This document shows, in pieces, positions 10,165-26,812 of a stretch of DNA of 64,000 nt (its first letter is position 1; each line of letters starts with the position of its first letter). The notes under the pieces are model-generated. The model saw only the letters and a list, made by a program, of their open reading frames with translations. It had not been told where the DNA came from and made no database searches. A program made the position numbers and the translations under genes. The DNA comes from Paraburkholderia megapolitana. Lineage in GTDB: Bacteria > Pseudomonadota > Gammaproteobacteria > Burkholderiales > Burkholderiaceae. The DNA lies in contig NZ_CP041745.1 in the NCBI RefSeq assembly GCF_007556815.1, forward strand, positions 1,054,001 to 1,118,000. Direction: 5' to 3'.

Positions 10165-11829
10165 TTACGCCCCGTCGATAAGAGGAGGTAAGGATGACAT
10201 CTGCTGCGTCACATAACGACTCACCCTATCGCACAACTCCTTTCTGTCGTTTGACACGAACAATATGGGGGCACGTTGAGTTGTGATGTCCAACAATGAA
10301 AGATCCACTCCGTGGAGGACAGCCATATACTGACCGTTTGCCTCGTGAATATCGTAGCCCCATAATTCGCCCCCACCAACGATTGCAAGAGCTTTATAGT
10401 ATAAATTGCGTGCCTTCGCGGTAGGTTGAAGCACAAATTTACTTTGATCAGCACCGTCCAGGCTTGAGCCTGAAATTCCTATATATTCAGCAATGCTCCG
10501 CCCGTGATGAATAGGATCGGAGATTAATTCTTCGTACGATATTTTGTATGGAGAGAGTCCGTTCTTGTTGAAAAAATCAAGAAAGAATTTCTCCGCATTC
10601 AAAAGAAAATTGATTTTATCTAAAATGGAATCCCTGGATATGTAGTGAAACGTCTCGTCATGTCGCGAATTGGAGAAATTGTGCCAAACGCCGGTCTCTA
10701 TCGATATTTGATAAGAGATTGCTTGAGCGAGGATATCATTCCTCCAGATATATATATGTCGCCAGTTTTTGACGGAAGCGAAAAACTCGGGTTCCTCCTG
10801 AAAGCGCTCTGATTCAATTTCAACTCCAAATGCCCCATTCTCCGAATGTAATCTGGACATGAGGAAATCTTCATATGAAGAGGAAATATCCGAGAATGCA
10901 AGAGAAAAAGTTCTCAACACATCTGGGACAAAATGCTCTCCAGGAAACCCTAGCTTACCCGTGCCAGCCAGAATTTCGGTAAGCAACGTAGATCCCGAGC
11001 GTGGGATCATGAAAATGCAATATTTTAAAGATGCATTTTTCTCGTTCTTTAAAATAAACTCGATTAATTCCTTGGGGGAGCGCCGGAATTGCGATTTTAT
11101 ATATTCGATTGGCAGAGTCCATTCCTTTTCGAACAAGGCGACTCTTTCGGTTACTTCGACCTCAGGTGGCGAAATTTCACGAGGCACAAAAGTAGTGTTC
11201 GAGTAAAAATCAATGATCTCACGTTCGTCGAAACCGGAGGCGTGATCATCGTATCTAAGTTCCGGATTTCCAGTCGCTTCATTACATCTAATAATCGTAT
11301 ATTGAATAAAGCTTCGACATGAGACGGTTTGATTTTCCTTTTTAGTGTTTATCGAAAAATCAATAAAACCTGCAGTGCTTAATCTCAGGAACGCTGAGTA
11401 TCTAGGGTTCGCTGCAGGTTCCGATATACTCTCCTCCCAGAGTCGTTTCCCATTTGCACAGACCGTGACGACGTATTCCCCTTCAAATGTCGTGGGGGTA
11501 AACGAGATTGCTACGAAGTAAGTGCCAGGCGATGAAATGAGAACCCGAGCAGCCATTGTTTCAAACGCGTGAGAAACCAGCACTGTTCGATGAGGTGGGA
11601 TTGGGACAAGCTCGTAGGTAGTAAGCGCGCTCCCGAAGCTAGTAGCCGCAAATCCGGTTCCGTCTTGAGGGCGGCTGGCCAGGTGTGGAGCGTACCAGCG
11701 CTTGATCCCTTGCTCAGTAAATGTATATTTTCGAAGAGGGGAAAAGAAATAATCCCCAACTTTTTCACCATATTGAGTTAAAAAGGTATCACTCGCATAT
11801 GGAGGAAGCTTCGATATTTGATTTTCCAT
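10165..11829 (-). CDS. Stf0-type sulfotransferase with an added N-terminal beta-rich domain
   Basis: The C-terminal half (about residues 265-500 of 554) is a PAPS-dependent sulfotransferase. The 5'-phosphosulfate loop is IPRSGSTLL (residues 275-283), followed by TGKLGFPGEHF, and the arrangement resembles Stf0 trehalose sulfotransferases. Residues 1-240 match nothing I recognise. They are rich in alternating hydrophobic residues (YFVAISFTPTTFEGEYVVTV, FLRLSTAGFIDFSI) and look like a beta-sandwich, perhaps a carbohydrate-binding module. No signal peptide is present, so it is cytoplasmic. The gene is AT-rich like its neighbours. In an O-antigen locus the simplest role is sulfation of a sugar residue before export. 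Family assignment is fairly firm and the substrate is open. Confidence 0.8.
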   Translation of the reverse strand: MENQISKLPPYASDTFLTQYGEKVGDYFFSPLRKYTFTEQGIKRWYAPHLASRPQDGTGFAATSFGSALTTYELVPIPPHRTVLVSHAFETMAARVLISSPGTYFVAISFTPTTFEGEYVVTVCANGKRLWEESISEPAANPRYSAFLRLSTAGFIDFSINTKKENQTVSCRSFIQYTIIRCNEATGNPELRYDDHASGFDEREIIDFYSNTTFVPREISPPEVEVTERVALFEKEWTLPIEYIKSQFRRSPKELIEFILKNEKNASLKYCIFMIPRSGSTLLTEILAGTGKLGFPGEHFVPDVLRTFSLAFSDISSSYEDFLMSRLHSENGAFGVEIESERFQEEPEFFASVKNWRHIYIWRNDILAQAISYQISIETGVWHNFSNSRHDETFHYISRDSILDKINFLLNAEKFFLDFFNKNGLSPYKISYEELISDPIHHGRSIAEYIGISGSSLDGADQSKFVLQPTAKARNLYYKALAIVGGGELWGYDIHEANGQYMAVLHGVDLSLLDITTQRAPILFVSNDRKELCDRVSRYVTQQMSSLPPLIDGA

Positions 11830-12422
11830 TTCGCTTAAAGATGAGCTTCAATTTAACAAAAATCGATCTGCAATTAGCAGAGGCCTCAGGGTCCGGATGC
11901 GATCCCAGCTTTTAGCTGGAACCGCCAAAGTGGACGTGTCATCGATTGCGTCTTGAGTATCTTCGCGAAGTATGCCTCATCCGGAGTCCGACCTACAAAA
12001 TGCAGTAAGAACCTGATCAGATGCGCGGGGCACGATCGCAGATCGGGGGCAAAAACACCCCTCATCAATCGTACTTGATCGATGAGCTGGAGCCGTGCTT
12101 GTCCTCGTGTCGTAACATTTCAGCTCGTTACGAAGGAGCAGTCCACTACGCTAATCGAGCGCCATGACATGTTTGCCGCCACTGCATACGATTTCGGCAG
12201 GAAGTCGACGAGAGGTGTGTCATGGCTTTCCTAAAGCTTCCTCTGAGGTCGTTGAATGGATACGATTAATGAAAACGTAACCTGGCCGTTCGCCGGTCAA
12301 TCAGCAAGTAGGTCCGGCACTGCTGCATTCAGATGGCGAACGGTCCAGTTGTCTATTCTCTATCGGCAATGCTTGGGTATTCGTATTCCAAGACGATTGC
12401 GCGCGGTACTTTCTACATCGCA
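11830..12422. other. non-coding stretch with a possible transposase fragment
   Basis: No intact gene in these 593 bases. The only suggestive item is the fragment at 11886-12068 on the minus strand. The remainder, including the 12240-12420 part that borders the glycosyltransferase gene, shows no product. Confidence 0.5.
11886..12068 (-). pseudogene. possible C-terminal remnant of an IS3-type transposase
   Basis: A short frame contains LHFVGRTPDEAYFAKI, which resembles the GRTPxExYF segment found near the C-terminus of IS3-family DDE integrase domains. No catalytic Asp-Asp-Glu region, inverted repeat or target duplication could be found nearby. If it is real it is the last trace of a deleted insertion sequence in the mosaic section of the locus. 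This call is tentative. Confidence 0.3.
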
Positions 12423-13907
12423 TCAAATCAACGCGGCCTTCAGTTTGCTTTTTAGTTTTCCGGGCAGGGCTGCTGCAATTTTGAACGCGATGCGATGACG
12501 ATAGAATCGTACAACCATGGTCGAAGTCAGCTTTCTCAAGAGAGTCTGCGGCCGGCCGGGTAGAACATTGATCGGATATATATCGCCGAAATACTTTGTC
12601 ACTTCAGTCAATTCATAGACGTCCATTTCTTCCTGGTTGAGAATTTCCCACGCCGGGCCGATAGCTGGTGCATCGATGAGTTTGTATGCGAGAAGATAAT
12701 CATCATTATCTTTAACACTGGACACTACATATCCACGGGGATGCAGTCGAACAAAGCGGTCACCCATCTGATTGACAATCAATGAGCCGAATCGAAGGGC
12801 GAGACTATCTACGCCAATTGCCTCGAATATAAGGCTGAGTTTATTGACAAAATCTTTTTCCGTTAAGGAATCGCAACCAGCATACAAATCACGCAGCATC
12901 TCGTTAGCGATGGCTTTTTCAGGGCATGTCCGACACAAAAAATCATAAGCCTCGTCGAATTCAGCCGAGGTCATTTTTTCTTCTTTCTTGAACCAGCCAT
13001 ATCGAATCTGAGCTACCAGATGAGAATACAGTTCATCGATCTGCCGACGAAGCAATGTGCCTTCCGAACACATTGAGCGCCGCACATCAGCATAGCTGTA
13101 TGCGTTTCTGTCTATCAGGAACCTAAATTGCCTGATTAACCCAAAGGTCCACGCATAGAATCGATAGGTCTTTGCAAGGCCCGAATATCGTTTCCACTCA
13201 CTATCGTCACCGGCGTGATATGCCTTACTTTCAATCTGACACAGATAGGATGAGAAATACTGCAGCGTCTCGTCGTGCAGTGTCGCCAACGTCGTCGTCA
13301 CATGCGAAAAGTGAGGACCGCAATTATCGATGATATCTTTCCATATCGTGCGATCCAGGCGTTTGCGCTCAAAGATCCAGGTGCCCATGCCTGTTGCGAT
13401 GAAGTTTATCCCGGTACTCATAACGAAACGCTTGTATGGCATCAATCCCTGATTCGCCAACATGTGCGTAGACGGGTGACTATTGGTCTTCCCGTTTTGA
13501 TCGATCCAGTTTGAATTGAAGTATGCCGCTGGGGCTGTCGGATTTTCTAGCCAGCTTGCCAGTCGTCGCAGCCCTTCAGGGAGGAATATTCTCTTGTCAC
13601 CGACAAGCCAGATGAAGTCGCCGTGAGCGTATGCGGATGCGGCGTAGGCCGATTCCTCCGCCGTAAGTTCGAAACGCTCGGAGCGCACGATCTTCAACTC
13701 CTGGAATCGCCCCCGGATGGTTTCGAGGCGGCTCTCGATGCGAGGATAATCGATTGGGGATAGAGGATCGGGATTCAAAAAAACAACGACCTCTGCACGC
13801 GCCAACATTGCGGGTGGCGCGTGGTTGACCAACGAATTCAGGCAGCGAAAGAGATTCTTCTCCTTTCCTGTTGTCGGAACAATCAAAGAAACCAACGGAC
13901 TTCCCAT
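12423..13907 (-). CDS. glycosyltransferase, GT-A/family-2-like
   Basis: A 494-residue cytoplasmic protein starting PLVSLIVPTTGKEKNLFRCL, the nucleotide-binding beta-alpha unit of GT2-like enzymes. AYAHGDFIWLVGDKRIFLPEG occupies the place of the metal-binding DxD loop, in altered form. The C-terminal 250 residues are helical and do not match a domain I know; they may bind the lipid-linked acceptor or a partner. The gene is last in the run of overlapping minus-strand genes that begins at rfbF, 33 bases after the ThDP enzyme. It is therefore the best candidate to transfer the unusual sugar made by that operon. Donor and acceptor are unknown. Confidence 0.75.
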   Translation of the reverse strand: MGSPLVSLIVPTTGKEKNLFRCLNSLVNHAPPAMLARAEVVVFLNPDPLSPIDYPRIESRLETIRGRFQELKIVRSERFELTAEESAYAASAYAHGDFIWLVGDKRIFLPEGLRRLASWLENPTAPAAYFNSNWIDQNGKTNSHPSTHMLANQGLMPYKRFVMSTGINFIATGMGTWIFERKRLDRTIWKDIIDNCGPHFSHVTTTLATLHDETLQYFSSYLCQIESKAYHAGDDSEWKRYSGLAKTYRFYAWTFGLIRQFRFLIDRNAYSYADVRRSMCSEGTLLRRQIDELYSHLVAQIRYGWFKKEEKMTSAEFDEAYDFLCRTCPEKAIANEMLRDLYAGCDSLTEKDFVNKLSLIFEAIGVDSLALRFGSLIVNQMGDRFVRLHPRGYVVSSVKDNDDYLLAYKLIDAPAIGPAWEILNQEEMDVYELTEVTKYFGDIYPINVLPGRPQTLLRKLTSTMVVRFYRHRIAFKIAAALPGKLKSKLKAALI

Positions 13908-13940
13908 GCTGCCATCCTCAATCTATGTTTAATTCGACGC

Positions 13941-15689
13941 TTACCGCGCCCAGCTCACATCCGCGATATCCGTCGAATACGGCTTACCGTTCTCATCAAA
14001 CTTCGTCATCACAGCCGGGCCGCGGTAACCGTCTTCTTCGACCGAGACATCGATCAGACGACGCGGAGCACCACTGTTCAGACTCGCTTCGAGTTGTTCC
14101 AGCGTGTCGCATTTCTCATAAGGCAGACCTGCAAGCTTCGCCAGCAGATCGAATTGCAACTCGTACAGTCCAGACGCCTTGGACGCACCAAATTCCTTAT
14201 TGAACGCACGCGCTTGCGATTTCATGATCGATTGATAGCCGCGGTTGTTCAGCACGATCACGGTAAGCGGAAGGTCCGGATTTGCCGCAAGCGTGAAGAG
14301 CTCCTGCACGTTCAACAGCAACCCACCGTCGCCTTCCAGGCACACCACGGGTTGCTTGAGCCCGGCCACCGCCCCAACTGCAGTCGGCAGCCCCAGGCCC
14401 ATCGAACCGAGCACATGTCCGGCCCATGCAAAGCTCGCGCCTTCGGTCGGCTTGAAGAACCGCGCAATGCCTTCGATTGCATAGCCGGATGCGGTAGGCA
14501 CCACATACTTGCCAACACGCGACCGGGACAACACGGTTGAGATTTGATACGTCGTCAGCCTAGGATTGCCGAATGCCGCCAGTTCGTCTTGCTGATCTTG
14601 CGCCTGCAACGTTTCGCAATTCGACAGCCACTCTTTGACATTGACCGTCGGTGCGCGAGTCAACAGGGCATCCACGACACCCGCAACGTTCACGTTAAAG
14701 AACGTGGTGTTCGTCATTCCCTCGTTCTTCGCGATTTCCTTTTCGTCCAGTTCCACGACGATACGCTTTGCGTTCTTGCCGTAGTTCTGCGGATTGAACG
14801 CAGTGGTCAGCAGGTCAAGGCGCGTACCGAGGAAAATCACTGCATCGGCCGACTGCATGATCTTGTTCGAATGCGTCGGTGCAAGGCCGCCAGCACAGCC
14901 GAAGTTCAGCTTGTGATCGTGCGCGAGCAGGTCGAAGCTTGCCCACGTGAACAGAGTCGGCACGCCGATCTTCTCAACCAGCTGCTTGATCGACGAACGG
15001 GAGATGCCAGCAATACGTAGCGCATTGCCGACCACCAGCACCGGTTGACGCGCGCCCTGCAACGCAGAAATGATGGCCGACACCGCCGCTTCCGGCACGT
15101 CGTGATCTTTGTGTACCGCGTCTGCGATCAGTGCGGCAATGTTCGCCAGTCGTGTTTCTGCATCGGGCACGGTCTCGGCTTGAACGTCGAGAGGGATGTC
15201 GATGAACACCGGTCCCTTACGACCCGAAACGGCCTGCGCCAGATTGGTCGCCAGCGTCGTGTCGTCGATCTCCGACGGCACGTAGCGGAACGCACACTTC
15301 GTGATCGGTTGCATCAGCTCGAGGTGGGGCGTTTCTTGCGCGCCACGGCTGCGTACACCGTGACCGTTGATGTCGGCACGCTTCACCTGACCGGCGAGCA
15401 CGAACATCGGCACCGAGTCATAGTAGGCGGAAGCCACCGACGTGATGGTGTTCGTCACACCCGGACCCGATGTCACGATGGCCAGACCCGGCGTCACGTA
15501 GTCCTTTGCCTTCGCATAGCCGTCAGCCGCGGCGGCTACTGCCTGCTCGTGGTTGCAATAAATCACACGCAGGTCGGGCGCTGCATCGGCTGCGCGATTG
15601 ATGTGCATCGCCATACCGCCGGTCAGGCAAAACGCGGTATCGGTGCCCAGCTTCTGGATGTTGGCAAGAATAAATTCAGCGACGTTCAT
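13941..15689 (-). CDS. ThDP-dependent carboligase, acetolactate synthase-like (possible YerE-type sugar-branching enzyme)
   Basis: A 582-residue ThDP enzyme with the full three-domain acetolactate-synthase fold. The activating Glu is E48 in NHEQAVAAAADGYAK, the middle domain has VLVVGNALRIAG, and the C-terminal ThDP motif runs from GDGGLLLN to LNNRGYQS. Housekeeping acetolactate synthase would be paired with a small regulatory subunit, which is absent. Instead it lies nine bases after a NeuB fusion gene, in an operon with rfbFGH. In yersiniose synthesis a related enzyme, YerE, adds the acetyl unit of pyruvate to C4 of CDP-3,6-dideoxy-4-ketoglucose. An equivalent carbon-carbon bond-forming role on a deoxysugar is the favoured inference. 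Other decarboxylase or ligase substrates remain possible. Confidence 0.82.
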   Translation of the reverse strand: MNVAEFILANIQKLGTDTAFCLTGGMAMHINRAADAAPDLRVIYCNHEQAVAAAADGYAKAKDYVTPGLAIVTSGPGVTNTITSVASAYYDSVPMFVLAGQVKRADINGHGVRSRGAQETPHLELMQPITKCAFRYVPSEIDDTTLATNLAQAVSGRKGPVFIDIPLDVQAETVPDAETRLANIAALIADAVHKDHDVPEAAVSAIISALQGARQPVLVVGNALRIAGISRSSIKQLVEKIGVPTLFTWASFDLLAHDHKLNFGCAGGLAPTHSNKIMQSADAVIFLGTRLDLLTTAFNPQNYGKNAKRIVVELDEKEIAKNEGMTNTTFFNVNVAGVVDALLTRAPTVNVKEWLSNCETLQAQDQQDELAAFGNPRLTTYQISTVLSRSRVGKYVVPTASGYAIEGIARFFKPTEGASFAWAGHVLGSMGLGLPTAVGAVAGLKQPVVCLEGDGGLLLNVQELFTLAANPDLPLTVIVLNNRGYQSIMKSQARAFNKEFGASKASGLYELQFDLLAKLAGLPYEKCDTLEQLEASLNSGAPRRLIDVSVEEDGYRGPAVMTKFDENGKPYSTDIADVSWAR

Positions 15690-15698
15690 GATGGCGTT

Positions 15699-17600
15699 CT
15701 AGTTAAGCTTGGTGAGGAAATCCAGCGCGTGCCAGAATCCGGCACCATGGTCTTTGTGGCCCTGCCACACTTCGGGGATAAAGCTGACTGACGGATAAGC
15801 CGAAATCTTCTTCCATGTCTGCGGCCAGTTGACATCGCCGGTGCCGATCACCACACCCTCGCCATTCACGCCGAGCGCGTCAGCGACGTGCAGGTGCACG
15901 CTATGGGGCAGCAGCTTCGCCAGGGCGTCCTGGAAGTCCAGGCCGAAATGACTGCAGGTCATCTGCAGGTGCGACAGGTCGGTACACAGGCGCAGGTTCA
16001 GTTCCTTGGCCTTTTGAGCCAGCTCATCCGGCATCATAAAGATGTTCTGATGGCGTTGGCCGCCGAAGTGCCACGGGAACGGTGCCATGTTTTGCGGCGT
16101 CAGTTCGGTGGAACCGAAATCGATTTTCGCGCATGACTCGACGAAGCGGTCGTACAGTTCGGCGCGATGCGCGAGCGGGAAGGGCGCGTCCATCGAGAAT
16201 CCGCCCACGTTCGCAACGATCAGCGCCGAATCGGCCGCCGGGAAGAAGCTGCGAATCTGTTCGGTGACTTCAACCACACGTTTGAGGTTGTCGATCGAGC
16301 GTTGGCGATAGGCCAGGTCGTCGGCGGTAAGGTCGAGCAACTCGCTGTTTTCGAACAGTTCGGGCGCGTGAACGACTAGGCGCTTGCAGTTGCTTTCCTT
16401 CAGGTACTTCGACGGTGTCAGCGACATGTCGCGATACGACAGGTGGAATTCCCAGAGGTCCGGATCGATCATGCTCACATACTGATCGAAGTCGTGATAA
16501 CGAACCGGCACGCCCCAGTACCCTGGGAACTGATACGTGCGCTTGACCGTCTTCTGCGCAGTCAGATCGCCCTCATACAGGAAGTCGCCGATACGGATAT
16601 CACGGTGCGCGACTTTGCCCAGCAACTCGGGCAACCGGTAAGGGGCCAACCCCTGGCCTGGGCTCGCCACGCGCAGGCTTTCTTCGGTGAACGTCTCACC
16701 GTGCTTGATTGCGCGAGCGGCAATGACGCTCTTGCTCAGATTTTCTCGGTTCAGCAGTTCACCCTGGCTCGCGAGACGTCCTGGGCCGGTCCAGGGCAAT
16801 GCCTGTTCGACCTGCCGGATGCCATCCACCAGGAACTTGAATTCCGCGGGTTCGAGACTTGCCGCGTGATCGGGGCCTTCCATGCTGCGGTCGAGCGTGA
16901 TGTGCCGTTCGACGACCTTCGCACCAAGTGCGACGGCCGCGATCGTCACAGCCACACCGCGCTCATGACCGGAATAGCCGATGACGCTGTGAATTTCCTG
17001 CAGACGCTTGATATAGCCGAGGTGAATATCGCCTTCCGGTGCGGGATAGGCGCTATTGCAGTGGAGCAGTACAAACGGCACGCCAAGGCTCTTGACGAGT
17101 TTCGCGGCTGCCTCGATCTCCGGCTCAAACGACATGCCGGTCGACAGGACCAGCGGCTTGCCCAGGCTGGCTGCCTTACGGATCAGGTAGGGGTTCGTCA
17201 GATCGGCCGATGCCAGCTTCAGCGCAGGCACGTCGAACTCCGCCAGAACATCGACGCTCGGCTCGTCCCACGGCGTGCACATGTACGCGATATTCTTCTG
17301 CGTGCAGTAGTCGCGCATCTCGCGGTGCTCGTCATTCGTCAGCTCGACCTTGTTCAGAAGGTCTTGAATGTACTCGACGCCGAGATCTTCCGAGCCTTCT
17401 TCGCCAGGTGCCGTCCGGTAGAGCGCGGCGCGGTTTCTGAGCTGGAATTTGACGCAATCCGCACCGGCTTCGATCGATGCGTCCACCAGTTTTTTCGCAA
17501 GCTCAACGCTGCCGTTATGATTGTTGCCAATCTCAGAGATCACGAACGTACGCGGACCCCCGACAGTGAACTCGCCAATCTTGAATGTCGATTCGTTCAT
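15699..17600 (-). CDS. NeuB-family synthase fused to an SAF domain and a xylose-isomerase-like TIM barrel
   Basis: A three-part protein of 633 residues. Residues 1-285 are a NeuB/SpsE PEP-dependent sugar-acid synthase, with SEIGNNHNGS, ADCVKFQ, IGYSGHERG and ERHITLDRSMEGPDH all present. Residues 288-348 form the antifreeze-like SAF domain (RAIKHGETFTEESLRVASPG). Residues 355-633 are a second TIM barrel of the AP-endonuclease-2/xylose isomerase superfamily, with likely metal ligands in VVHAPE, CTDLSHLQM and HLHVADALG. The start at 17600 gives an ATGA overlap with the kinase gene, although the frame is open to 17618. Ordinary sialic acid synthases stop after SAF, at about 340-350 residues. Predicted reaction: condensation of PEP with an aldose, plus an isomerase/epimerase step by the extra barrel. 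The product is unknown. Confidence 0.88.
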   Translation of the reverse strand: MNESTFKIGEFTVGGPRTFVISEIGNNHNGSVELAKKLVDASIEAGADCVKFQLRNRAALYRTAPGEEGSEDLGVEYIQDLLNKVELTNDEHREMRDYCTQKNIAYMCTPWDEPSVDVLAEFDVPALKLASADLTNPYLIRKAASLGKPLVLSTGMSFEPEIEAAAKLVKSLGVPFVLLHCNSAYPAPEGDIHLGYIKRLQEIHSVIGYSGHERGVAVTIAAVALGAKVVERHITLDRSMEGPDHAASLEPAEFKFLVDGIRQVEQALPWTGPGRLASQGELLNRENLSKSVIAARAIKHGETFTEESLRVASPGQGLAPYRLPELLGKVAHRDIRIGDFLYEGDLTAQKTVKRTYQFPGYWGVPVRYHDFDQYVSMIDPDLWEFHLSYRDMSLTPSKYLKESNCKRLVVHAPELFENSELLDLTADDLAYRQRSIDNLKRVVEVTEQIRSFFPAADSALIVANVGGFSMDAPFPLAHRAELYDRFVESCAKIDFGSTELTPQNMAPFPWHFGGQRHQNIFMMPDELAQKAKELNLRLCTDLSHLQMTCSHFGLDFQDALAKLLPHSVHLHVADALGVNGEGVVIGTGDVNWPQTWKKISAYPSVSFIPEVWQGHKDHGAGFWHALDFLTKLN

Positions 17601-18964
17601 GCTACTTTGGTTCTCCACGATGTAACGCCCTCTTGTTCGAAACGGATGGTGCTCAGCGTGCAGCCGTGCGCCTTGAGCGCTGCGCTGACCGCGGAGCGGA
17701 AGCGCGGTTGCACGTAGAACAGGAAGAAACCGCCACCCCCTGCGCCCAGTAATTTTCCGCCTGATGCACCCGCGTCCAGCGCGGCTTTGTAGATTGTATC
17801 CAGCGTGTTGCCGCTGATCGCACTAGATAGCCCGTGCTTGATCGTCCACGCTTCATGCAGACTGGTGCCGAAATCGTTGAGGTCGCCACGAATCAGATGC
17901 TTGTGCATGCGCCGGCACAAATCCACCATGTCGAGCAGTTGCTGGCTACGATCGACATTGTTATTGAAGTCTTCGCGTTGCTGCTTATGAATCTTGCCTG
18001 AGTTGTGCTCGATACCGGTATTGCACAGCACCAGGCACTCTTCCAGTTCGTTGCTGGTCGCCGGCTCGAGGCGCAGCGAATGCACGAGATTGCGCTTGCC
18101 GTCGAACTCGATCAGGTTAAACCCGCCAAAGGCCGACGCATACTGATCCTGCCAGCCGCCGGAGATGGCGTAGCAGAGCCGCTCTGCCTGGAACGCCAGT
18201 TCGGCAATTTCGTAGGTGCTCCATTTGTCCAGTCGCAACTCGTTGAATGCCGCGACTACGCTTGTTGCCACGGCTGACGAGCCGCCGAGGCCGGAGCCCA
18301 CCGGGAAGTCGGAGTGCACAAACAGGTCGAAGCCGAAGTCCGGACGGATGACCGAAACTACCGAGGACAGAAGTCCTTTGTCCGGGTTGTCCAGCAGAGC
18401 GCGCAGCGACGGATAGTGTTCATGCCGATCGATGTCATGAGAAATGACATTGATCTCGGGACCCGCGGAAGGGATCAATGTTGCGTGTGCATACAACGCG
18501 ATCGACGCGTTCAGAACGACACCGCCGTTCTTCATGAAGTAATACGTGAGATCGGTTCCGCCGCCGGAGAAGCTGATGCGGACCGGCGCGCGGGCACGCG
18601 AGAGCACCGCCACCTCTTTCGCGGGCGGAAAGAAATCCGGGGTCGCGAACTCCACCAGCTTGCCGAGTTCATCAAGCAGAGGCACTGCGTTATAGCCAAT
18701 GTCGAACAGCTTCAACAGTTCTTCGCGCGAGGTCCCGTGGGGCAGGGCGTGGAACTTGCGGTTCATGCACTCGTGAACCGGGGTCGACGTTTGTCCACCG
18801 CCCACCAGGAAGCGTCGGATATCGCCATTGGTCAGGACGCCGACGAGGACGTTCTCGGCGTCGACCACGAGCGCAATTTGCGTCGGCCCACGTTCGATGG
18901 CGGCAATCGCGTCGACGACGGGTTGGTCGTGTTTGACAACAAGATCTTTGAAGTGGTCTTTCAT
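17597..18964 (-). CDS. GHMP sugar kinase (HddA-like) with N-terminal CBS domain pair
   Basis: Residues 1-115 form a CBS pair (PTQIALVVDAENVLVGVLTNGDIRRFLVG-type beta-alpha units), normally an adenine-nucleotide sensor. From about residue 123 a GHMP kinase begins with RARAPVRISFSGGGTDLTYY, carries the ATP loop GSGLGGSSAVATSV and ends with GASGGKLLGAGGGGFFLFY, the pattern of D-glycero-alpha-D-manno-heptose 7-phosphate kinases. That enzyme makes heptose 1,7-bisphosphate. gmhA, gmhB and a nucleotidyltransferase in the same window supply the other steps. It starts inside the stop of the nucleotidyltransferase gene (TAATG) and overlaps the NeuB fusion by four bases. A CBS-kinase fusion is unusual and could regulate flux by energy charge. 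Confidence 0.85.
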   Translation of the reverse strand: MKDHFKDLVVKHDQPVVDAIAAIERGPTQIALVVDAENVLVGVLTNGDIRRFLVGGGQTSTPVHECMNRKFHALPHGTSREELLKLFDIGYNAVPLLDELGKLVEFATPDFFPPAKEVAVLSRARAPVRISFSGGGTDLTYYFMKNGGVVLNASIALYAHATLIPSAGPEINVISHDIDRHEHYPSLRALLDNPDKGLLSSVVSVIRPDFGFDLFVHSDFPVGSGLGGSSAVATSVVAAFNELRLDKWSTYEIAELAFQAERLCYAISGGWQDQYASAFGGFNLIEFDGKRNLVHSLRLEPATSNELEECLVLCNTGIEHNSGKIHKQQREDFNNNVDRSQQLLDMVDLCRRMHKHLIRGDLNDFGTSLHEAWTIKHGLSSAISGNTLDTIYKAALDAGASGGKLLGAGGGGFFLFYVQPRFRSAVSAALKAHGCTLSTIRFEQEGVTSWRTKVA

Positions 18965-19653
18965 TACAGTTTCCGCACACCGTGTTCACGAATGAGTTTC
19001 AAGCTGTCTGGCGTGCCAATATCCAGGAACGGTCCCTCGTACACCTGCGCTGTCAGGAGCTTTTGCGCGATCAGTGCAGGGATGATGACCTGTTCCATGG
19101 ATAACGTCTCGACAGGGAAATCGGACAGATTGCGCGTATGCAAACCGTAGACGCCGGCGCTGATCAGCCCCGGACCGGTCTTGCCTTTCTCGGTGATCGC
19201 CTGAACCTGACGGTCCTCGTTGAATTGCACAGCGCCATACCGTTCGCAATCGTCGATCGGGGTCACGACGATCGAAGGCGGCGCAGCCTCTGCAGCGGCG
19301 CGATAGGCGGTGGCGTCCAGATAAGTGTCCGCATTCAGCGCGATAAACGGGCCTTCATACCGAAGCTCGGACAGCGCATACAAAATGGCGCCGCCGGTTC
19401 CCATCGGGGACGGCTCGCGCACGATGGCAACTTTGCGCGCAGGGTCGGAGGGCAGGTTCGTCACCACCTCTTCGACCTGTTCGGACTGGTAATGGGTACA
19501 AAAAACGAGGTCATGAATGCCGGCCATGGCGAGCTGTTCGATGACAAAGGAAAGGAACGGGCGCCCGTCGATATCGGCTACCGCCTTCTGCGATGCGCCA
19601 ATCACGCTACGCAGGCGAGTGCCTAGTCCTCCACACAGTATCAGCGCTTTCAT
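18964..19653 (-). CDS. sugar-1-phosphate nucleotidyltransferase, HddC-like
   Basis: A 229-residue NTP-transferase with LILCGGLGTRLRSVIGASQK at the N-terminus and FIALNADTYLD as the metal-binding loop. EGPFLDIGTPDSLKLIRE at the C-terminus is typical of HddC/RfbF-type proteins. The likely reaction is activation of D-glycero-alpha-D-manno-heptose 1-phosphate to GDP-heptose, since the kinase gene follows directly. The nucleotide and sugar are inferred from neighbours, not from specificity residues. The start at 19653 overlaps the stop of the upstream SDR gene (ATGA); an alternative ATG lies 18 bases earlier. Confidence 0.85.
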   Translation of the reverse strand: MKALILCGGLGTRLRSVIGASQKAVADIDGRPFLSFVIEQLAMAGIHDLVFCTHYQSEQVEEVVTNLPSDPARKVAIVREPSPMGTGGAILYALSELRYEGPFIALNADTYLDATAYRAAAEAAPPSIVVTPIDDCERYGAVQFNEDRQVQAITEKGKTGPGLISAGVYGLHTRNLSDFPVETLSMEQVIIPALIAQKLLTAQVYEGPFLDIGTPDSLKLIREHGVRKL

Positions 19654-20720
19654 GAGTTTTTCGAAGACCAAAGAGCAGTGTTGAGAATCGCCTGCGGTAA
19701 TGCGGTCCAGACGTCGAGGCCGAGTTCGCTGCGCGCTTCGTCGATCGACGGAATGTATCGGTTGCCGGCGCCTGGACTGTTGCTGGCACCCTCGACAATT
19801 ACTGTCTTGGCGGGCGCCAGCGTGGCAATCACCTGGCGCGCCAGCTCGGCGATCGTGACTTCATGATCGGAGCCCACGTTGTAGATGCCGCGATTGCGCC
19901 CGTTCAACAGCAGATGGTTTAGCCAGACCGCGAGATCGGCTGCGTAGAGATACGACCTGACGCCTTTGCCATCGCCGCGAATCACGATTTGATCCTGCGT
20001 CAGCGCGTCGCGAATGAAGTTGCCGATCGCAAAATGTCCGTCGAGAGGCAGACCCGCACCGACAAATGCGAAGCATCGGGCAATCACGACTTCACATGCG
20101 TTCTCATGCGCATGGATTGCACCGAGCAGCTCCATCACGCGCTTGCCTTCGCCATACGCACTGCCGACTTCCATCGTCGAAGGCGCATTTCTTGACGACT
20201 CGAGCAACCGCGGTGTGTCGACGGACTGCCCGCCATACGCGCCACCCGAACTTACCAGCAGCACGCGCTTTGCCCCGCACGCTTTAGCGCATGCAAGGAT
20301 GCGCTCGGTGCCGCGCACGATCGAGTTCAGCAGGAGAGCCGGCGACCTGCCTGCAGCCGCCGACGTGTCGGTCGCTGCATGGATGACGTAATCGACGGAT
20401 TGCTCGGGAAAAACGAAGTCCTGGATGTCGCCGACGATCCACTGCAACCATTCGGCGTCCGCGACCCACGGATGTTTGCGCTTGAAGCTCTGCGGGTCGC
20501 GGGAGATGGCCAGCACACGGAACTGCATGTTGCGGGTCTTTCTCAGCCATTCGAATAGCGCAAGGATCCACGCACCAAAAAAACCGGTCGCACCAGAGAC
20601 GAGGATTGTCTTGCCGTCGATGTCGTGGCAATCGATATGCGCCGTCAGTCTTGCGAAGTCGGAACTTGCAATCTCAAAAAACGGGCGCTGCGATGCCTGC
20701 ATCTCATTGGGCGACGTCAT
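19650..20720 (-). CDS. extended SDR, NAD-dependent epimerase/dehydratase (candidate CDP-dideoxysugar synthase/reductase)
   Basis: A 356-residue extended short-chain dehydrogenase. The nucleotide loop is VSGATGFFGAWIL, the catalytic Ser lies in LVSSGGAYGG and the Tyr/Lys pair in SAYGEGK. The C-terminal half has YNVGSDHEVTIAELA, as in sugar-nucleotide SDRs. It starts two bases after rfbH, the position occupied by rfbJ (abequose synthase) or the paratose synthase in enterobacterial dideoxyhexose operons. It may therefore reduce the C4 ketone of a CDP-3,6-dideoxyhexulose, or act like YerF on a branched derivative. The protein is longer than abequose synthase (about 300 residues), so the exact reaction is open. 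Confidence 0.8.
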   Translation of the reverse strand: MTSPNEMQASQRPFFEIASSDFARLTAHIDCHDIDGKTILVSGATGFFGAWILALFEWLRKTRNMQFRVLAISRDPQSFKRKHPWVADAEWLQWIVGDIQDFVFPEQSVDYVIHAATDTSAAAGRSPALLLNSIVRGTERILACAKACGAKRVLLVSSGGAYGGQSVDTPRLLESSRNAPSTMEVGSAYGEGKRVMELLGAIHAHENACEVVIARCFAFVGAGLPLDGHFAIGNFIRDALTQDQIVIRGDGKGVRSYLYAADLAVWLNHLLLNGRNRGIYNVGSDHEVTIAELARQVIATLAPAKTVIVEGASNSPGAGNRYIPSIDEARSELGLDVWTALPQAILNTALWSSKNS

Positions 20721-20722
20721 AC

Positions 20723-22066
20723 TCAGAATCCGATGCCGAGATAATTTTCGATCTTCGTTGCAACGTACTCGAGGTGCTCGCTCGTCAATCCTGGGTAAAT
20801 GCCGAGCCAGAAAGTTTGATTCATGACGATGTCGCTGTTGGTCAGATCGCCAACCACGCGATAATTCCGGCCGAGCATGTAAGGCTGACGCGTCAGGTTG
20901 CCCGCAAACAGAAGGCGGGTGCCGACCTTGTTCTGGTCGAGGTAAGTCAGCAACTCGAGGCGGCTAACAGGAGCATTGTCCTTCAGCGTGATCGGGAAAC
21001 CGAACCAGGACGGATCGGAGTTCGGCGTGGCATGCGGCAGCAGCAGGAATTCTTCGCAGCTTGCGAGGCGCGCCTTCAGGAAATCGAAGTTGGCGCGGCG
21101 CTTTGCGATGAAGTCGTCGATCCGGTCGAGCTGTGAAAGCGCACACGCGGCCTGCATGTCGGTGATCTTCAGGTTGTAGCCGAGATGCGAATACGTGTAT
21201 TTGTGGTCGTATCCTTCCGGCAGATTCCCGAGCTTCCAGCAGAAGCGCTTGTTACACGTGTTGTCCTTGCCCGGGGCGCAATAGCAGTCGCGGCCCCAGT
21301 CGCGGAACGATTCCGCGATCATCTTCAGATCGGGGTCGTTCATGAACACTGCGCCGCCTTCGCCCATCGTAATGTGGTGCGCAGGGTAGAAGCTCAGTGT
21401 GCCGATGTCGCCGAATGTGCCGACCTTCTGCCCGTTGTACGTCGCGCCGAGCGCATCGCAGCAGTCTTCGATTAGCCACAGGTTGTGCCGCGTGCAGATG
21501 TCCTTGATCACGCCGAGGTTGTACGGATTACCCAGCGTATGGGCCAGCATGATGGCCTTGGTCTTGCTGGAAAGCGCAGCCTCGATCTTCGATGCATCGA
21601 TGTTGTAGGTGCCGAGTTCGACGTCGACGAAGACCGGCACGGCGCCGAACTGCAGAATCGGATTGACCGTAGTCGGGAATCCCGCTGCTACGCCGATCAC
21701 TTCGTCGCCCGGCAGAATGGCGCGCTCGCCGAGCTTCGGCGATGTCAGCGTGCTGAATGCAACCAGATTGGCAGAGGAGCCCGAATTAACGGTGATCAGA
21801 TGATTGACGCCGAGATATTGGGCAAGGCGTTTTTCGAACTCGTCGTTAAAGCGCCCGGTTGTCAGCCAGCCGTCAAGCGACGCCTCCACCATGTTGCGCA
21901 GTTCCGGTGCGCCAATCACCTTGCCCGACGGCGGAATGGTCGTCTGGCCCGCTACGAAAGGTTTGTCTGCGTAGGCAAGCGCAGCATATTCGTCAACCAG
22001 TGCCGCGATCTTTCGGCGCAGTTCGGCTTGTGCCTGTTTGCCGGAGTCGATGATTTCGATAGCCAT
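20723..22066 (-). CDS. rfbH: CDP-4-keto-6-deoxyglucose 3-dehydrase RfbH (E1)
   Basis: PMP- and iron-sulfur-dependent enzyme that removes the 3-hydroxyl of CDP-4-keto-6-deoxyglucose on the way to 3,6-dideoxyhexoses. The 447-residue protein has the aminotransferase fold, but the usual PLP-lysine position is occupied by His in [16 protein letters not shown] (H230/H231), the hallmark of E1. The [2Fe-2S] cysteines are visible as C261-x-C263-x7-C271, plus C276. The N-terminal segment and length agree with Salmonella RfbH. It lies between rfbG (27-base gap) and the SDR gene (2-base gap). Its reductase partner E3 (RfbI/AscD) is not encoded in this window. Confidence 0.96.
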
Positions 22067-22093
22067 AATGGGAGGACCTTGTAGGAATCTTGA

Positions 22094-23194
22094 TTACTTG
22101 TTCGCTGCGCGTTGTTGCGCCGCGACTGAATAGTGTTGAATTTGCGCGAGGCAGACTTGCTGCATGTTTTCGCCGCCGGTCTTCGCGCGATGCCATGCAA
22201 CCGTTGCCTCAACCGCCGTGGGCAAATTCCAGCTCGGAACCCAGCCCAGGTATTGTTTGGCTTTAGAGCAATCTAGCTTCAGGAAGTTGGCTTCGTGGGG
22301 TTGTTCTGCGCCATCCTGTTGCCAGCGAGCCGACTCGCCCCATTGCTCGATGACGAGCTCGACGACTTCTCGCACGCTGCGCGCGTCGGTATCGTTGGGG
22401 CCGAAGTTCCAGCCGCCGTTGAAGGCAGTACCCTGTTGTGCGAGGGCCTGCGCCAATACCAGATAGCCCGATACGGGTTCCAGTGCGTGCTGCCACGGGC
22501 GCACGGCACCGGGGTTGCGGATCATCAACGGCACGCCTTTCTGGAATGCAGCAATGGCATCCGGAACCAGTCGGTCTGCAGACCAGTCGCCTCCGCCAAT
22601 CACATTGCCTGCTCTTCCAGACGCGATGGCTACACCGTGGTCTGCATAACGTGCGGCCGGAAAGAACGATTCGCGGTAAGCGGCCGTCACCAGCTCCGCG
22701 CAGCCCTTGCTATTGCTGTACGGATCATGTCCGCCCATCGGCTCGTTTTCGCGGTAGCCCCAGGGCCACTCGTTGTTCTGATAGCACTTGTCGGAGGTCA
22801 CCATGACGGCGGCACGCACCGAGTCGCACTGCCGGATCGCGTCGAGTACATGGACGGTGCCCATGACATTGGTCGCGTACGTTTCAACCGGCTCTGCATA
22901 CGAATAGCGCACGAGAGCCTGCGCTGCCATATGAATTACGACATCGGGACGGAACTTGACCATTGCGGCCGTCAGTTTCTCCCGGTCGCAAACATCGCCG
23001 AAGTGATTTTGCTCAAGCGTAGCGAGCACACCAGCTGTGTCGAAAAGACTCGGCTGCGTGTTGGGCTGCAGCGCATAGCCGGCCACTTTGGCACCCATGG
23101 ACGCCAGCCACAGCGACATCCAGCCACCCTTGAAACCGGTATGGCCGGTCAGGAACACGCGTTTGCCTTGCCAGAACGCCGGATCAACGACCAT
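22094..23194 (-). CDS. rfbG: CDP-glucose 4,6-dehydratase RfbG
   Basis: Oxidoreductive dehydration of CDP-D-glucose to CDP-4-keto-6-deoxyglucose, supplying RfbH. The 366-residue extended SDR shows the family N-terminus FWQGKRVFLTGHTGFKGGW, the catalytic VTSDKCYQN, and DPYSNSKGCAEL containing the Tyr and Lys. The YALQPNT segment typical of RfbG is also present. The frame is open to 23236, but the ATG at 23194, three bases from the rfbF stop, gives the conserved N-terminus. Assignment is secure. Confidence 0.96.
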   Translation of the reverse strand: MVVDPAFWQGKRVFLTGHTGFKGGWMSLWLASMGAKVAGYALQPNTQPSLFDTAGVLATLEQNHFGDVCDREKLTAAMVKFRPDVVIHMAAQALVRYSYAEPVETYATNVMGTVHVLDAIRQCDSVRAAVMVTSDKCYQNNEWPWGYRENEPMGGHDPYSNSKGCAELVTAAYRESFFPAARYADHGVAIASGRAGNVIGGGDWSADRLVPDAIAAFQKGVPLMIRNPGAVRPWQHALEPVSGYLVLAQALAQQGTAFNGGWNFGPNDTDARSVREVVELVIEQWGESARWQQDGAEQPHEANFLKLDCSKAKQYLGWVPSWNLPTAVEATVAWHRAKTGGENMQQVCLAQIQHYSVAAQQRAANK

Positions 23195-23196
23195 CG

Positions 23197-23964
23197 TCAC
23201 TCCCACGTTTTCCACGGTGCGTTGCCCGACGTCCACAACTCTTCGAGGTGGTTTTTGTCGCGCAGTGTGTCCATGGGCTGCCAGAAGCCGGGATGAAAGT
23301 AGGCCTGCAGTTGATCGCTTTTCGCGAGGGCTTCGAGCGGTTGCCGCTCCCAGAGCGTTTCGTCCGCTTCGATGAGATCGATAGCGGACGGCTGCAGTAC
23401 AAAGAACCCGCCGTTGATCCAGCCACCGTCGCCGGTCGGCTTTTCGACGAATGAGCGCACTTGTGTGCCGTTCAGTTCAAGCGCTCCGAACCGGCCCGGA
23501 GGCTGAACGGCAGTCATCGTCGCCTGCTTGCCATGCGCGCGATGGAAGGCGAGCAGATCAGTGATGTTGACGGAGCCAACGCCATCGCCGTACGTCATGC
23601 AAAAATCGCCGTCGATATAATCGCGTACACGGCGAAGACGGCCGCCAGTCTGCGTTGTCTCGCCGGTGTCGACGAGCGTCACGCGCCACGGTTCGGCCTT
23701 TTTCTGATGGACTTCCAGGGAGTTTTTTGCCAGGTCGATCGTTACGTCGGACATGTGCAAGAAATAGTTGGCGAAGTATTCCTTGATCAGATACCCTTTG
23801 TAGCCGCAACAAACAATAAAATCAGTCAAGCCATGTGCGGCATAGATCTTCATGATGTGCCACAAGATCGGCTTGCCGCCGACTTCGACCATTGGCTTCG
23901 GTCGGACAGACGTTTCTTCCGAAATTCGGGTCCCGAGACCCCCTGCAAGCAGTACAACTTTCAT
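23197..23964 (-). CDS. rfbF: glucose-1-phosphate cytidylyltransferase RfbF
   Basis: Makes CDP-glucose from CTP and glucose-1-phosphate, first step of the CDP-deoxysugar branch. The 255-residue protein begins [20 protein letters not shown] with the nucleotide-binding GGxGTR, then [19 protein letters not shown], and has [14 protein letters not shown] as the metal site. It is the first gene of a long minus-strand operon (rfbF, rfbG, rfbH, SDR, nucleotidyltransferase, kinase, NeuB fusion, ThDP enzyme, glycosyltransferase) in which nearly every junction overlaps or is within a few tens of bases. A GAGGAG ribosome site lies 12 bases before the ATG. Confidence 0.97.
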
Positions 23965-24590: not shown

Positions 24591-25211
24591 TCAGTGCGCT
24601 GCTTCTACGGGAAACATCGCCAGTTCAACCGCTTCGCACACACTGTGTGCCAGCAGGATATGCAACTCCTGGATCGTGCTCGTGCGGCTGCCGGGAGCAA
24701 CCAATGCGTAGTCCGCGAGCGTTGCGGCTTCGCCGCCACCAAAGCCCGTAAAGACGATCGACTTCACTCCAGCCTGTTTGCACACCTGCAACGCAGACAG
24801 GATGTTCTTCGATTTTCCGGATGTCGTGATGCCCAGAAACACGTCATTGGGCTTCAACTTCGCGATCAATTGTCTGGAAAATACGTGTTCGTACCCGTAG
24901 TCATTACCGATGGCGGTAAGAATGGACGTATCTGTTGTCAGGGATTCTGCCGGGAGGGGATTTCTGTCCCGCGCGAGCCTACTGACGAATTCCGCGGCGA
25001 GGTGTTGGGAGTCTGCAGCGGAGCCACCGTTGCCAGCGATATAAAGTCGACCACCTGCCTTGTAGCAGTCGATTACATGCGATGCCGCTTTCGAAAAGGT
25101 TTCGAGTAAGCGCGCGTCGTTGAGCAGCGCTTCTTTCGCGCGGATGGATTGGGCTGTATTGGTTTGTAGAATATCTACGGGGCTGGAGGGGCTTGTCATA
25201 GCATTAGTCAT
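24591..25211 (-). CDS. gmhA: sedoheptulose 7-phosphate isomerase GmhA (phosphoheptose isomerase)
   Basis: Converts sedoheptulose 7-phosphate to D-glycero-D-manno-heptose 7-phosphate, the entry step of heptose synthesis. The 206-residue SIS-domain protein shows LYIAGNGGSAADSQHLAAEF, LTAIGNDYGYEHVF and GITTSGKSKNI, with STIQELHILLAH containing the conserved Glu and His near the C-terminus. This is the paralogue type found in capsule and O-antigen loci. It stands alone between two non-coding gaps, but the locus also encodes an HddA-like kinase, GmhB and an HddC-like transferase, which complete a nucleotide-heptose pathway. Confidence 0.94.
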   Translation of the reverse strand: MTNAMTSPSSPVDILQTNTAQSIRAKEALLNDARLLETFSKAASHVIDCYKAGGRLYIAGNGGSAADSQHLAAEFVSRLARDRNPLPAESLTTDTSILTAIGNDYGYEHVFSRQLIAKLKPNDVFLGITTSGKSKNILSALQVCKQAGVKSIVFTGFGGGEAATLADYALVAPGSRTSTIQELHILLAHSVCEAVELAMFPVEAAH

Positions 25212-25597: not shown

Positions 25598-26812
25598 TTA
25601 TCGCCCGCCAGTGAAAACTGCTTTTAACGCCCGCAGCGGCGCTGTCAAGCGCCAGCTGGTCGACGCGTGCAGCGCGAGGACGCTGCCTTGTAGTTCATCG
25701 ATTCTTCCGTTGCGAGCGCGGAGTTGCTCGTCCTTGTCATGAAGCTGTCCGTTCAGGGCGGACAGTTGTTCGTCGATGGCGTGCAGTCTTTCCTCCTTGT
25801 CACGCAACGCCGTCTCGAGGGTATCGATACGGGCCTGTGCATTCGCAAATGGGGTCTCTTTGAGGGGCGTCGTATTGACCGCTTCTTCGCTGGATTCCCC
25901 TGCTGCACTGATCGCCGGCGCCGGAAAACGATAGACGAGATGCGGGTAGGCTTGTTCCGCATGCAATCCTGTCGCCTGAATCATTCCTTCGACCGCTTCC
26001 AGCGCACCGAGACATGTTGCTTGCAGGGGATCGTCGAATGCGAGGTAGCCACCGGAGGCATGCATCTTCGGCCGCACAACCTCAGTCGCAAACTTTACTG
26101 CAGAGTAGATATCGCAATCGATATGCGCGAGAGTGACGGCGTCGATCTTTTCGAGCAGCGCCGGCGCTGTCTGCTCGAACAAGCCCTGGACAGGGATCAG
26201 ATTGACCAATTGATTCTCTTGCGCAAATGTACGTAGCGCGTCAAGTGAGCTGTCCTTGAAGTCTCCCGCCATATGCAGGTCGCGTGCGGTATCCGTTTCA
26301 GGCATTCCCTCAAAGGTATCGAGCGCATAGACCTTGGCCTTCGTCTCGAGCCGACGCGCGATATTCGCCATGAAGATCGCCGAGCCACCCTTGTAGCTCC
26401 CGAATTCGACGATGTCGCCCTCGATACCGGCCAGGCCATACTTCAGGATCAGAAACAGATTCATGAGCTTGTGCTCGTCGACCACGGTCCAGCCCCGCGC
26501 CAACTCCATGCTCTCTTTGTAGATGGGATCCTGCGCGATCGCGGGCGCAATCCCCTCGGGTGACTGAAGTCCCCACGATCGCACGTAGCCGGCCGTCACA
26601 TTCCTGCCGGCGACAACACTGTTCGATGTGTTGATGTGAAGTTGACGGAGCGCGTGCTCGAGATCGGGCCCGTGAGTTTGATTTCTGAGGAGCGAGATTC
26701 CTGCGAGATGGAGATTCGTCATCCCTGCCAGTCTGGAAGTTGGTTCAAAAGGACTGCTCGGCACATGCCCAGATGTTCCGGCAGACGAGTAAGCAGCCGA
26801 TGAATTCGACAA
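25598..26812 (-). CDS. TylF-type SAM methyltransferase with C-terminal coiled coil
   Basis: The middle of the 404-residue protein is a macrocin-O-methyltransferase (TylF)-like class I domain: IEGDIVEFGSYKGGSAIFMA is the SAM loop, YALDTFEGMPETD follows it, and HIDCDIYSAVKFA and FDDPLQAT carry the acidic metal-binding residues. From about residue 312 a heptad-rich coiled coil (repeated DKEERLHA and DKDEQLRA) leads to the terminal ALHASTSWRLTAPLRALKAV. That SxSWRxTAPLR ending recurs in polysaccharide-locus glycosyltransferases and methyltransferases. It probably methylates a sugar hydroxyl of the polymer. In ABC-exported O-antigens a terminal methyl can stop elongation, with the coiled coil acting as a ruler. 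That role is speculative here because Wzt lacks a cap-binding domain. Confidence 0.85.
   Translation of the reverse strand: MSNSSAAYSSAGTSGHVPSSPFEPTSRLAGMTNLHLAGISLLRNQTHGPDLEHALRQLHINTSNSVVAGRNVTAGYVRSWGLQSPEGIAPAIAQDPIYKESMELARGWTVVDEHKLMNLFLILKYGLAGIEGDIVEFGSYKGGSAIFMANIARRLETKAKVYALDTFEGMPETDTARDLHMAGDFKDSSLDALRTFAQENQLVNLIPVQGLFEQTAPALLEKIDAVTLAHIDCDIYSAVKFATEVVRPKMHASGGYLAFDDPLQATCLGALEAVEGMIQATGLHAEQAYPHLVYRFPAPAISAAGESSEEAVNTTPLKETPFANAQARIDTLETALRDKEERLHAIDEQLSALNGQLHDKDEQLRARNGRIDELQGSVLALHASTSWRLTAPLRALKAVFTGGR

Follow-up and report, generated by a model that had tools for sequence, protein, structure and literature searches.

What does a bacterium build with an operon that joins a synthase of the NeuB family and a thiamine diphosphate (ThDP)-dependent enzyme to the genes for a cytidine diphosphate (CDP)-linked deoxysugar? 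The question is raised by nine genes of the soil bacterium Paraburkholderia megapolitana (contig NZ_CP041745.1), which occupy positions 12423–23964 on the minus strand of the 64,000-nt stretch that was analysed as a whole and is called the window here. In the reading that we favour, and to which we give about an even chance, the operon would supply the O-polysaccharide with a single branched higher-carbon deoxysugar, the two enzymes acting in series. The ulosonic acid predicted for the NeuB-type synthase probably serves as the keto-acid donor of the ThDP enzyme and is not activated with cytidine monophosphate (CMP), because ThDP and CMP-sugar synthetase genes replace one another between two clades of the synthase and because the sole synthetase-family gene of the genome is kdsB. 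The acceptor is probably CDP-4-keto-3,6-dideoxyhexose.

Exchange of ThDP and CMP-sugar synthetase genes between NeuB-TIM clades

The NeuB-type protein (positions 15699–17618, minus strand) has the domains PF03102, PF08666 and PF01261 and is predicted to be a phosphoenolpyruvate (PEP)-dependent 3-deoxy-ulosonic acid synthase fused to an isomerase/epimerase-type triosephosphate isomerase (TIM) barrel; it is referred to here as NeuB-TIM. An alignment-based search of genome contigs returned 389 relatives, the best 80 loci of which form the discovery set. A quick tree of these loci and the window (81 rows) contains two clades, each with a support of 100: clade I, the window's own, with 49 loci, and clade II with 31.

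The two clades differ in the gene that accompanies NeuB-TIM. In clade I, 43 loci have a ThDP gene only, one (L035) has a CMP-sugar synthetase gene (CTP_transf_3) only and five have neither, four of these being contigs under 8 kb and the fifth (L030) having 3.6 kb downstream. In clade II, the ThDP gene is found in no locus, the synthetase gene in 25 and neither in six (L054, L056, L063, L066, L069 and L070). The stretch of L069 is full-length; L063 has a 48-bit match that is counted as a synthetase in the tree labels and not in this stricter tally. CTP_transf_3 was confirmed by Pfam in three representatives, including that of L035, a locus that lies inside clade I on the tree and has neither a ThDP gene nor RfbFGH. 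Its row comprises a methyltransferase (by reading), CTP_transf_3, a pyruvyltransferase-like gene, HddC, HddA and NeuB-TIM. The linkage of NeuB-TIM, ThDP and RfbFGH genes, the lack of which would have counted against the preliminary description, is conserved, with the ThDP gene present in 43/49 and the 3-dehydrase gene rfbH in 38/49 clade I loci.

The same distribution was seen in a held-out set, for which 27 loci were fetched, 10 duplicates of discovery loci dropped and 17 kept. According to their percent identity with the window's protein, these were classed as clade-I-like (67–74%, n = 5) or clade-II-like (43–52%, n = 12). Within the fetched stretches, the ThDP gene occurs in 5/5 of the former and 0/12 of the latter, and CTP_transf_3 in 0/5 and 12/12, respectively (the weakest match, in L184, having 30% identity). 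Just beyond the fetched stretch of L158, at 9.5 kb from NeuB-TIM, its genome does carry a CTP_transf_3 gene, which is followed by a NeuB of its own and a NeuC-like gene.

Whole genomes were searched with PF02348 (CTP_transf_3) in 25 cases. The window's genome (completeness 100, three contigs) has a single CTP_transf_3 gene, which is kdsB by reading, and so offers no other partner of the kind expected for an N-acetylneuraminate synthase. Among the ThDP-positive clade I genomes, 11/15 are without CTP_transf_3 outside KdsB-class matches (at least 187 bits in these 11 genomes) and weak GlmU-like matches (21–30 bits, in open reading frames (ORFs) of 457–485 aa). In G004, G374 and G1184, the extra CTP_transf_3 gene shares a gene row with a second NeuB-family gene. 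The gene lies within 3 kb of NeuB-TIM in 9/9 clade II genomes, and 3.6 kb away in G010, the genome of L035.

Fourteen mapped active-site positions are uniform across both clades (81/81 sequences). The acid is therefore probably identical or similar in the two clades and formed from an acceptor that lacks the usual N-acetyl group. Residues E29, K57, K134, S137, S159, H218, H239 and D250, which we take to bind PEP and metal in NeuB, are retained in 81/81. Relative to the Neisseria enzyme, the acceptor side is changed in all 81 (E134 to Asp, N184 to Ser and R314 to Ser); Arg314 of NeuB presumably contacts the N-acetyl group. A further 17 positions differ between the clades in a fixed manner. A sialic, pseudaminic or legionaminic acid product was considered and is disfavoured by the scores, by the R314 change and by the missing CMP-synthetase: the curated score for N-acetylneuraminate synthase (NeuB_NnaB) is 399.65, and the protein scores 312.8. 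Pfam found no NeuC-like domain among the nine operon proteins.

At E ≤ 1e-150, and with the starting genomes included, NeuB-TIM was counted in 7/399 genomes from the order, 5/398 from the phylum and 17/298 from the genus of G001, and in 1/151, 6/199 and 3/198 genomes of three other groups. In the Pseudomonas genomes G001, G002 and G005, it lies between two flagellin-family genes. Such a gene is found within about 35 kb on the same contig in G003, G004, G007, G008 and G010, about 150 kb away in G009 and on another contig in G006; G011–G013 gave no flagellin match. The earlier likening of the product to a lipopolysaccharide (LPS) sugar of Burkholderia relatives is thus too narrow, the genes being confined neither to LPS nor to Burkholderia and standing in flagellar loci in several Pseudomonas genomes.

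Several other observations concern the protein family. A NeuB-TIM relative with 45% identity is encoded on an Ensifer canadensis plasmid (NZ_CP083371.1:902478-904325), where the table used has no annotated gene. Two NeuB-SAF-TIM proteins, P0072 (749 aa) and P0089 (746 aa), carry an extra CBS domain, which in the window is fused to the kinase. Plasmid and viral collections yielded little, and a sequence search of the TIM domain alone against solved structures gave no convincing match.

Enzymes of the operon and its surroundings

The ThDP protein (positions 13941–15689, minus strand) is probably a ketone carboligase on the YerE-like side of the decarboxylase superfamily, a prediction that draws on architecture, phylogeny and gene context. 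It has the three-domain architecture of the superfamily, the catalytic Glu and a GDG-type ThDP motif (GDG..NN), and rfbF, rfbG and rfbH belong to its own operon. The nearest solved structure is 8rph (E 3.3e-59), followed by plant acetolactate synthase (6e-52). Because 8rph carries the CDG motif, described as special to the YerE-like enzyme JanthE (PMC12247030 section 2.1), it is probably JanthE.

A careful tree of 58 rows includes 43 NeuB-linked ThDP proteins (the window, 41 discovery loci and L158); three distant own-genome rows were omitted from it, YerE itself is not among its rows, and the ThDP fragments of L003 and L014 were left out of all ThDP trees. The 43 proteins form one group (support 93/92), which nests (100/99) with 8rph and with 9/11 ThDP proteins from loci that have RfbFGH and no NeuB-TIM; the remaining two branch just outside this assemblage. 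Own-genome enzymes, including the IlvB-like L085, fall outside (95/83), and a quick tree of all 61 rows has the same grouping with a lower support (83). The window's protein therefore groups with the inferred JanthE and apart from the acetolactate synthase of its own genome, in keeping with the role in sugar synthesis first proposed for it.

Within the NeuB-linked group, best matches define a type A (the window, L001, L003, L004, L006, L034 and L076, with L003 typed from a gapped fragment containing 20 N), a type B (35 loci, about 34% identical to the window's protein) and a third type (two loci). At least five changes between A and B are needed on the NeuB tree, all inside this group; that the gene type varies while one ThDP group is kept argues for a needed function.

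RfbF (glucose-1-phosphate cytidylyltransferase; positions 23197–23964; TIGR02623, 474.6 bits with a cut-off of 300.25), RfbG (CDP-glucose 4,6-dehydratase; 22094–23236; TIGR02622, 506.8 with 278.45) and RfbH (20723–22066; NF011936, 754.1 with 423), all on the minus strand, are the only proteins of the nine to reach curated NCBIfam cut-offs. RfbH is an E1-type 3-dehydrase with a His in place of the pyridoxal phosphate-binding Lys and a Cys cluster, so that membership is indicated by scores and residues alike. The family assignment is confident, and the three enzymes are predicted to yield CDP-4-keto-3,6-dideoxyhexose with an assumed reductase; no DdhD/RfbI partner is encoded among the nine operon genes, to which the search for one was confined. 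The 38 clade I loci with a 3-dehydrase-type RfbH comprise 37 found by motif search and L034, which has a variant motif; in clade II there is one, L050, with the gene at a distance of about 8 kb. Of the ThDP-positive loci, six are without it, three of which (L003, L027 and L042) reach a contig end upstream. True RfbH is present in 38/299 Burkholderiaceae genomes. The loci of 37 of these, all but the window's own, were fetched: one has NeuB-TIM, and 11 have the ThDP gene without NeuB-TIM. RfbFGH alone is therefore not rare, and the combination with NeuB-TIM is. Two RfbFGH and ThDP loci without NeuB-TIM (L129:11533-16226; L152:1260-3850 and 12197-14032) each have a dehydroquinate (DHQ)-synthase-like gene, together with a short-chain dehydrogenase/reductase (SDR) in L129 and an HpcH/HpaI-like aldolase in L152; their gene sets possibly specify a carbocyclic branched sugar.

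The genes around NeuB-TIM suggest that its aldose substrate could be a heptose. The CBS-GHMP sugar kinase (positions 17597–18964; PF00571, PF00288 and PF08544) is HddA-like (224, below the cut-off of 600), and HddC is the top family (120.1 bits, below the cut-off of 300) of the sugar-1-phosphate nucleotidyltransferase (18964–19671). Upstream on the same minus strand, beyond the coordinates first given for the operon, lie a gmhA-like phosphoheptose isomerase gene (24591–25211; PRK13936, 174.5, below the cut-off of 276), 626 nt from rfbF and a probable supplier to the pathway, and a gmhB-like heptose bisphosphate phosphatase gene (28641–29225; TIGR00213, 179.7, above the cut-off of 149.6). The kinase is matched in 76/80 discovery loci, with NeuB within 1.2 kb of the contig start in the four misses, HddC in 65/80 and gmhA in 32/80 (nine in clade I and 23 in clade II). 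Five held-out loci (L161, L162, L163, L182 and L184) have NeuB-TIM and a CMP-sugar synthetase and no full HddA-like gene in the fetched stretch, and heptose genes are therefore not universal partners; a sixth clade II locus without a full HddA, L167, is cut by the contig end. Of the heptose activation proposed at the outset, the presence of related genes stands, with HddA and HddC as distant relatives only.

All nine ORFs were verified as a head-to-tail row on the minus strand: rfbF, rfbG, rfbH, SDR, HddC-like, CBS-GHMP, NeuB-SAF-TIM, ThDP and glycosyltransferase. For the called start codons, the successive junctions measure −40, 27, 2, −22, −1, −22, 9 and 33 nt. Overlaps thus occur at four of the eight (40, 22, 1 and 22 nt), not at most of them as had been described, and the other four are gaps of 2 to 33 nt; co-transcription is plausible. 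The described composition holds, with Pfam supporting the domain calls (TPP_enzyme_N/M/C; NeuB, SAF and AP_endonuc_2; CBS and GHMP_N/C; NTP_transferase; DegT) and NCBIfam the three Rfb proteins. The GHMP motif is intact, as are the ThDP and RfbH motifs. Much of the set recurs in Pseudomonas, Herbaspirillum, Thiorhodococcus and others, so that the grouping is more than chance.

Two operon genes remain. The extended SDR (epimerase/dehydratase/reductase; positions 19650–20720, minus strand; PF01370, with no NCBIfam equivalog reached) is a candidate ketoreductase or epimerase for the branched product, and 38/80 NeuB-TIM loci, 35 of them in clade I, have an SDR from its ORF cluster. The GT2-like glycosyltransferase (12423–13907, minus strand; PF00535, 20.1 bits, below the Pfam cut-off of 23.3) has homologues of 51–67% identity in L002, L003, L004 and L006. 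By reading, the rest of the window contains rml-type genes, an ATP-binding cassette (ABC) exporter pair, WecA- and WbpM-like genes and galE, and looks like an O-polysaccharide locus. An Stf0-type sulfotransferase gene (10165–11829) lies just downstream of the operon in a stretch low in G+C (0.458), and a TylF/Methyltransf_24-type methyltransferase gene (25598–26812), whose product may modify the sugar, lies between the gmhA- and gmhB-like genes.

Proposed pathway and competing readings

In the favoured pathway, RfbF, RfbG and RfbH, with the assumed reductase, would convert glucose-1-phosphate to CDP-4-keto-3,6-dideoxyhexose. NeuB-TIM would join PEP to a non-N-acetylated aldose, possibly a heptose on which the GmhA-, HddA- and HddC-like enzymes act, to form a 3-deoxy-2-ulosonic acid; chemically, a NeuB product is a 4-hydroxy-2-oxo acid. 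The ThDP enzyme would then decarboxylate this acid, without CMP activation, and attach the acyl chain that is left to the CDP sugar at its C4 ketone, a step suggested mainly by the exchange of genes and resembling that proposed for ErwE, whose 4-hydroxy-2-oxo acids are shorter. ErwE forms erwiniose on CDP-4-keto-3,6-dideoxyglucose and, in assays with an acceptor analogue, makes no use of pyruvate, its preferred donors being 4-hydroxy-2-oxo acids (PMC12247030 section 2.1). Finally, the SDR might reduce or epimerise the product, and the last operon gene would provide its transfer. The preliminary description had both enzymes forming carbon–carbon bonds for one higher-carbon sugar; this interpretation is partly supported, and it is strengthened and sharpened by taking the NeuB product as the probable ThDP donor. 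The pyruvate suggested there is probably not the natural donor.

Several observations weigh against this pathway. The exchange amounts to one deep split and one reversal, two changes when the loci with neither gene are left out, rather than to a long series of independent changes; for this reason, confidence in the series mechanism, which is predicted from gene comparison, is about half. Of the five held-out clade-I-like loci, four come from the genus of G001. The support of the ThDP group is moderate, long branches were flagged in both trees, and the A/B pattern could reflect an old duplication with losses. G008 has a CTP_transf_3 gene outside the KdsB-class and GlmU-like sets, G006 and G009 have two KdsB-class matches each, and the gene of G374 is 9.5 kb from NeuB-TIM, though beside a NeuB of its own and a NeuC-like gene; KdsB itself might activate an unusual acid. 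In the ThDP-positive L014, L043 and L076, where 6 to 10 kb upstream is visible, no RfbFGH was found nearby, so that the acceptor is not always CDP-4-keto-3,6-dideoxyhexose or the genes are elsewhere. The HddA and HddC scores lie under their cut-offs, and a full HddA is absent from 5/12 held-out clade II loci despite enough flank. The donors of YerE-like enzymes range from C2 to C8 (PMC12247030), and a heptose-derived acid would be C10. More tentatively still, the series enzymes may join PEP, an aldose (perhaps a heptose) and the CDP-ketosugar into a branched sugar with as many as about 15 carbons. Such a sugar would represent a monosaccharide class not yet described, carried by the O-polysaccharides of Burkholderiaceae and by the flagella of Pseudomonas and others.

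One alternative, to which we give about one chance in four, is that the operon serves two separate sugars of the same polysaccharide, a yersiniose-type C4-branched sugar (RfbFGH, the ThDP enzyme with pyruvate, and the SDR) and an ulosonic acid or heptose (NeuB-TIM and the HddA- and HddC-like enzymes). The 11/37 fetched Burkholderiaceae RfbH loci with ThDP and without NeuB-TIM favour it, as does a report of yersiniose A from a Burkholderia O-antigen (PMC4753412). An RfbFGH and ThDP locus has a legionaminic-type set (LegB/LegC-like and NeuB, by reading) beside it in L154 and L155, so neighbouring genes can serve different sugars. However, two sugars would leave unexplained why the CMP-synthetase is absent where the ThDP gene is present, and why the ThDP gene is retained where RfbFGH was not found (L014, L043 and L076).

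We consider it rather improbable that the ThDP enzyme converts the ulosonic acid into an aldehyde by decarboxylation or chain shortening, or links two units derived from heptose, while RfbFGH makes a separate 3,6-dideoxyhexose. The somewhat tighter linkage of NeuB-TIM to ThDP than to RfbH (43/49 and 38/49, a gap due in part to contig ends) would fit, and an SDR near NeuB-TIM in L014 and L076 could make another ketosugar acceptor, but most ThDP loci still carry RfbFGH, and the characterised enzymes nearest to it are of the YerE-like type, which accept ketones. That the gene encodes a misplaced or paralogous acetolactate synthase with no sugar role is very improbable: although acetolactate synthase is the top NCBIfam model, its 232.4 bits lie under the cut-off of 538.35, the tree separates the protein from its own genome's acetolactate synthase, so that this biosynthetic identity was rejected, and the NeuB-TIM linkage is kept across Pseudomonadota, in a cyanobacterium (L034) and in a verrucomicrobial bin (L007).

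Relation to known systems

If the series pathway is correct, NeuB-type products gain a second fate, as keto-acid donors for carbon–carbon bonds rather than as CMP-sugars. It would also explain loci now labelled as N-acetylneuraminate synthase plus acetolactate synthase. A family of unusual surface sugars would become accessible to genetics, and long-chain ketone carboligation would have a natural enzyme. As far as searches of the open-access literature go, a pathway from NeuB to a ThDP enzyme in series has not been described before; nothing was found there combining NeuB, acetolactate synthase and rfbH, or flagellin glycosylation, Pseudomonas and acetolactate synthase. Homologues of RfbFGH (ddh) and yerE are reported together in Pseudomonas WCS417 (PMC4509608).

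The nonulosonic acid pathways (sialic, legionaminic and pseudaminic) share the NeuB-family PEP-dependent synthase and, in 25/31 clade II loci, the CMP-sugar synthetase. Clade I mostly has the ThDP gene instead. In both clades the acceptor-side residues, including the R314 equivalent, are changed, and the nine operon proteins have no NeuC-like domain. The GDP-D-glycero-D-manno-heptose pathway (GmhA, HddA, GmhB and HddC) has relatives of all four families together here, of which the GmhB-type phosphatase alone exceeds its cut-off; the fusion of a CBS domain to the kinase is a further difference.

Three carboligase pathways are described in section 2.1 of PMC12247030, the main text of which makes no mention of NeuB or ulosonic acids. 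The yersiniose A pathway of Yersinia pseudotuberculosis (YerE) shares CDP-4-keto-3,6-dideoxyglucose and a ThDP carboligase; its donor is pyruvate, whereas the operon described here adds NeuB-TIM, a GHMP kinase and an HddC-like gene in the row. In the caryophyllose pathway of Mycobacterium marinum, the ThDP enzyme MMAR_2332 is assigned to a long branched higher sugar and has a donor preference like that of ErwE, with NeuB-type donor synthesis not described in that section. The erwiniose pathway of Pectobacterium atrosepticum shares a YerE-like ThDP enzyme, ErwE, that adds a hydroxy-functionalised 2-oxo-acid chain to CDP-4-keto-3,6-dideoxyglucose. Its donors range from 4-hydroxy-2-oxo-butanoate to -hexanoate, whereas the donor predicted here would come from a NeuB-type condensation with PEP.

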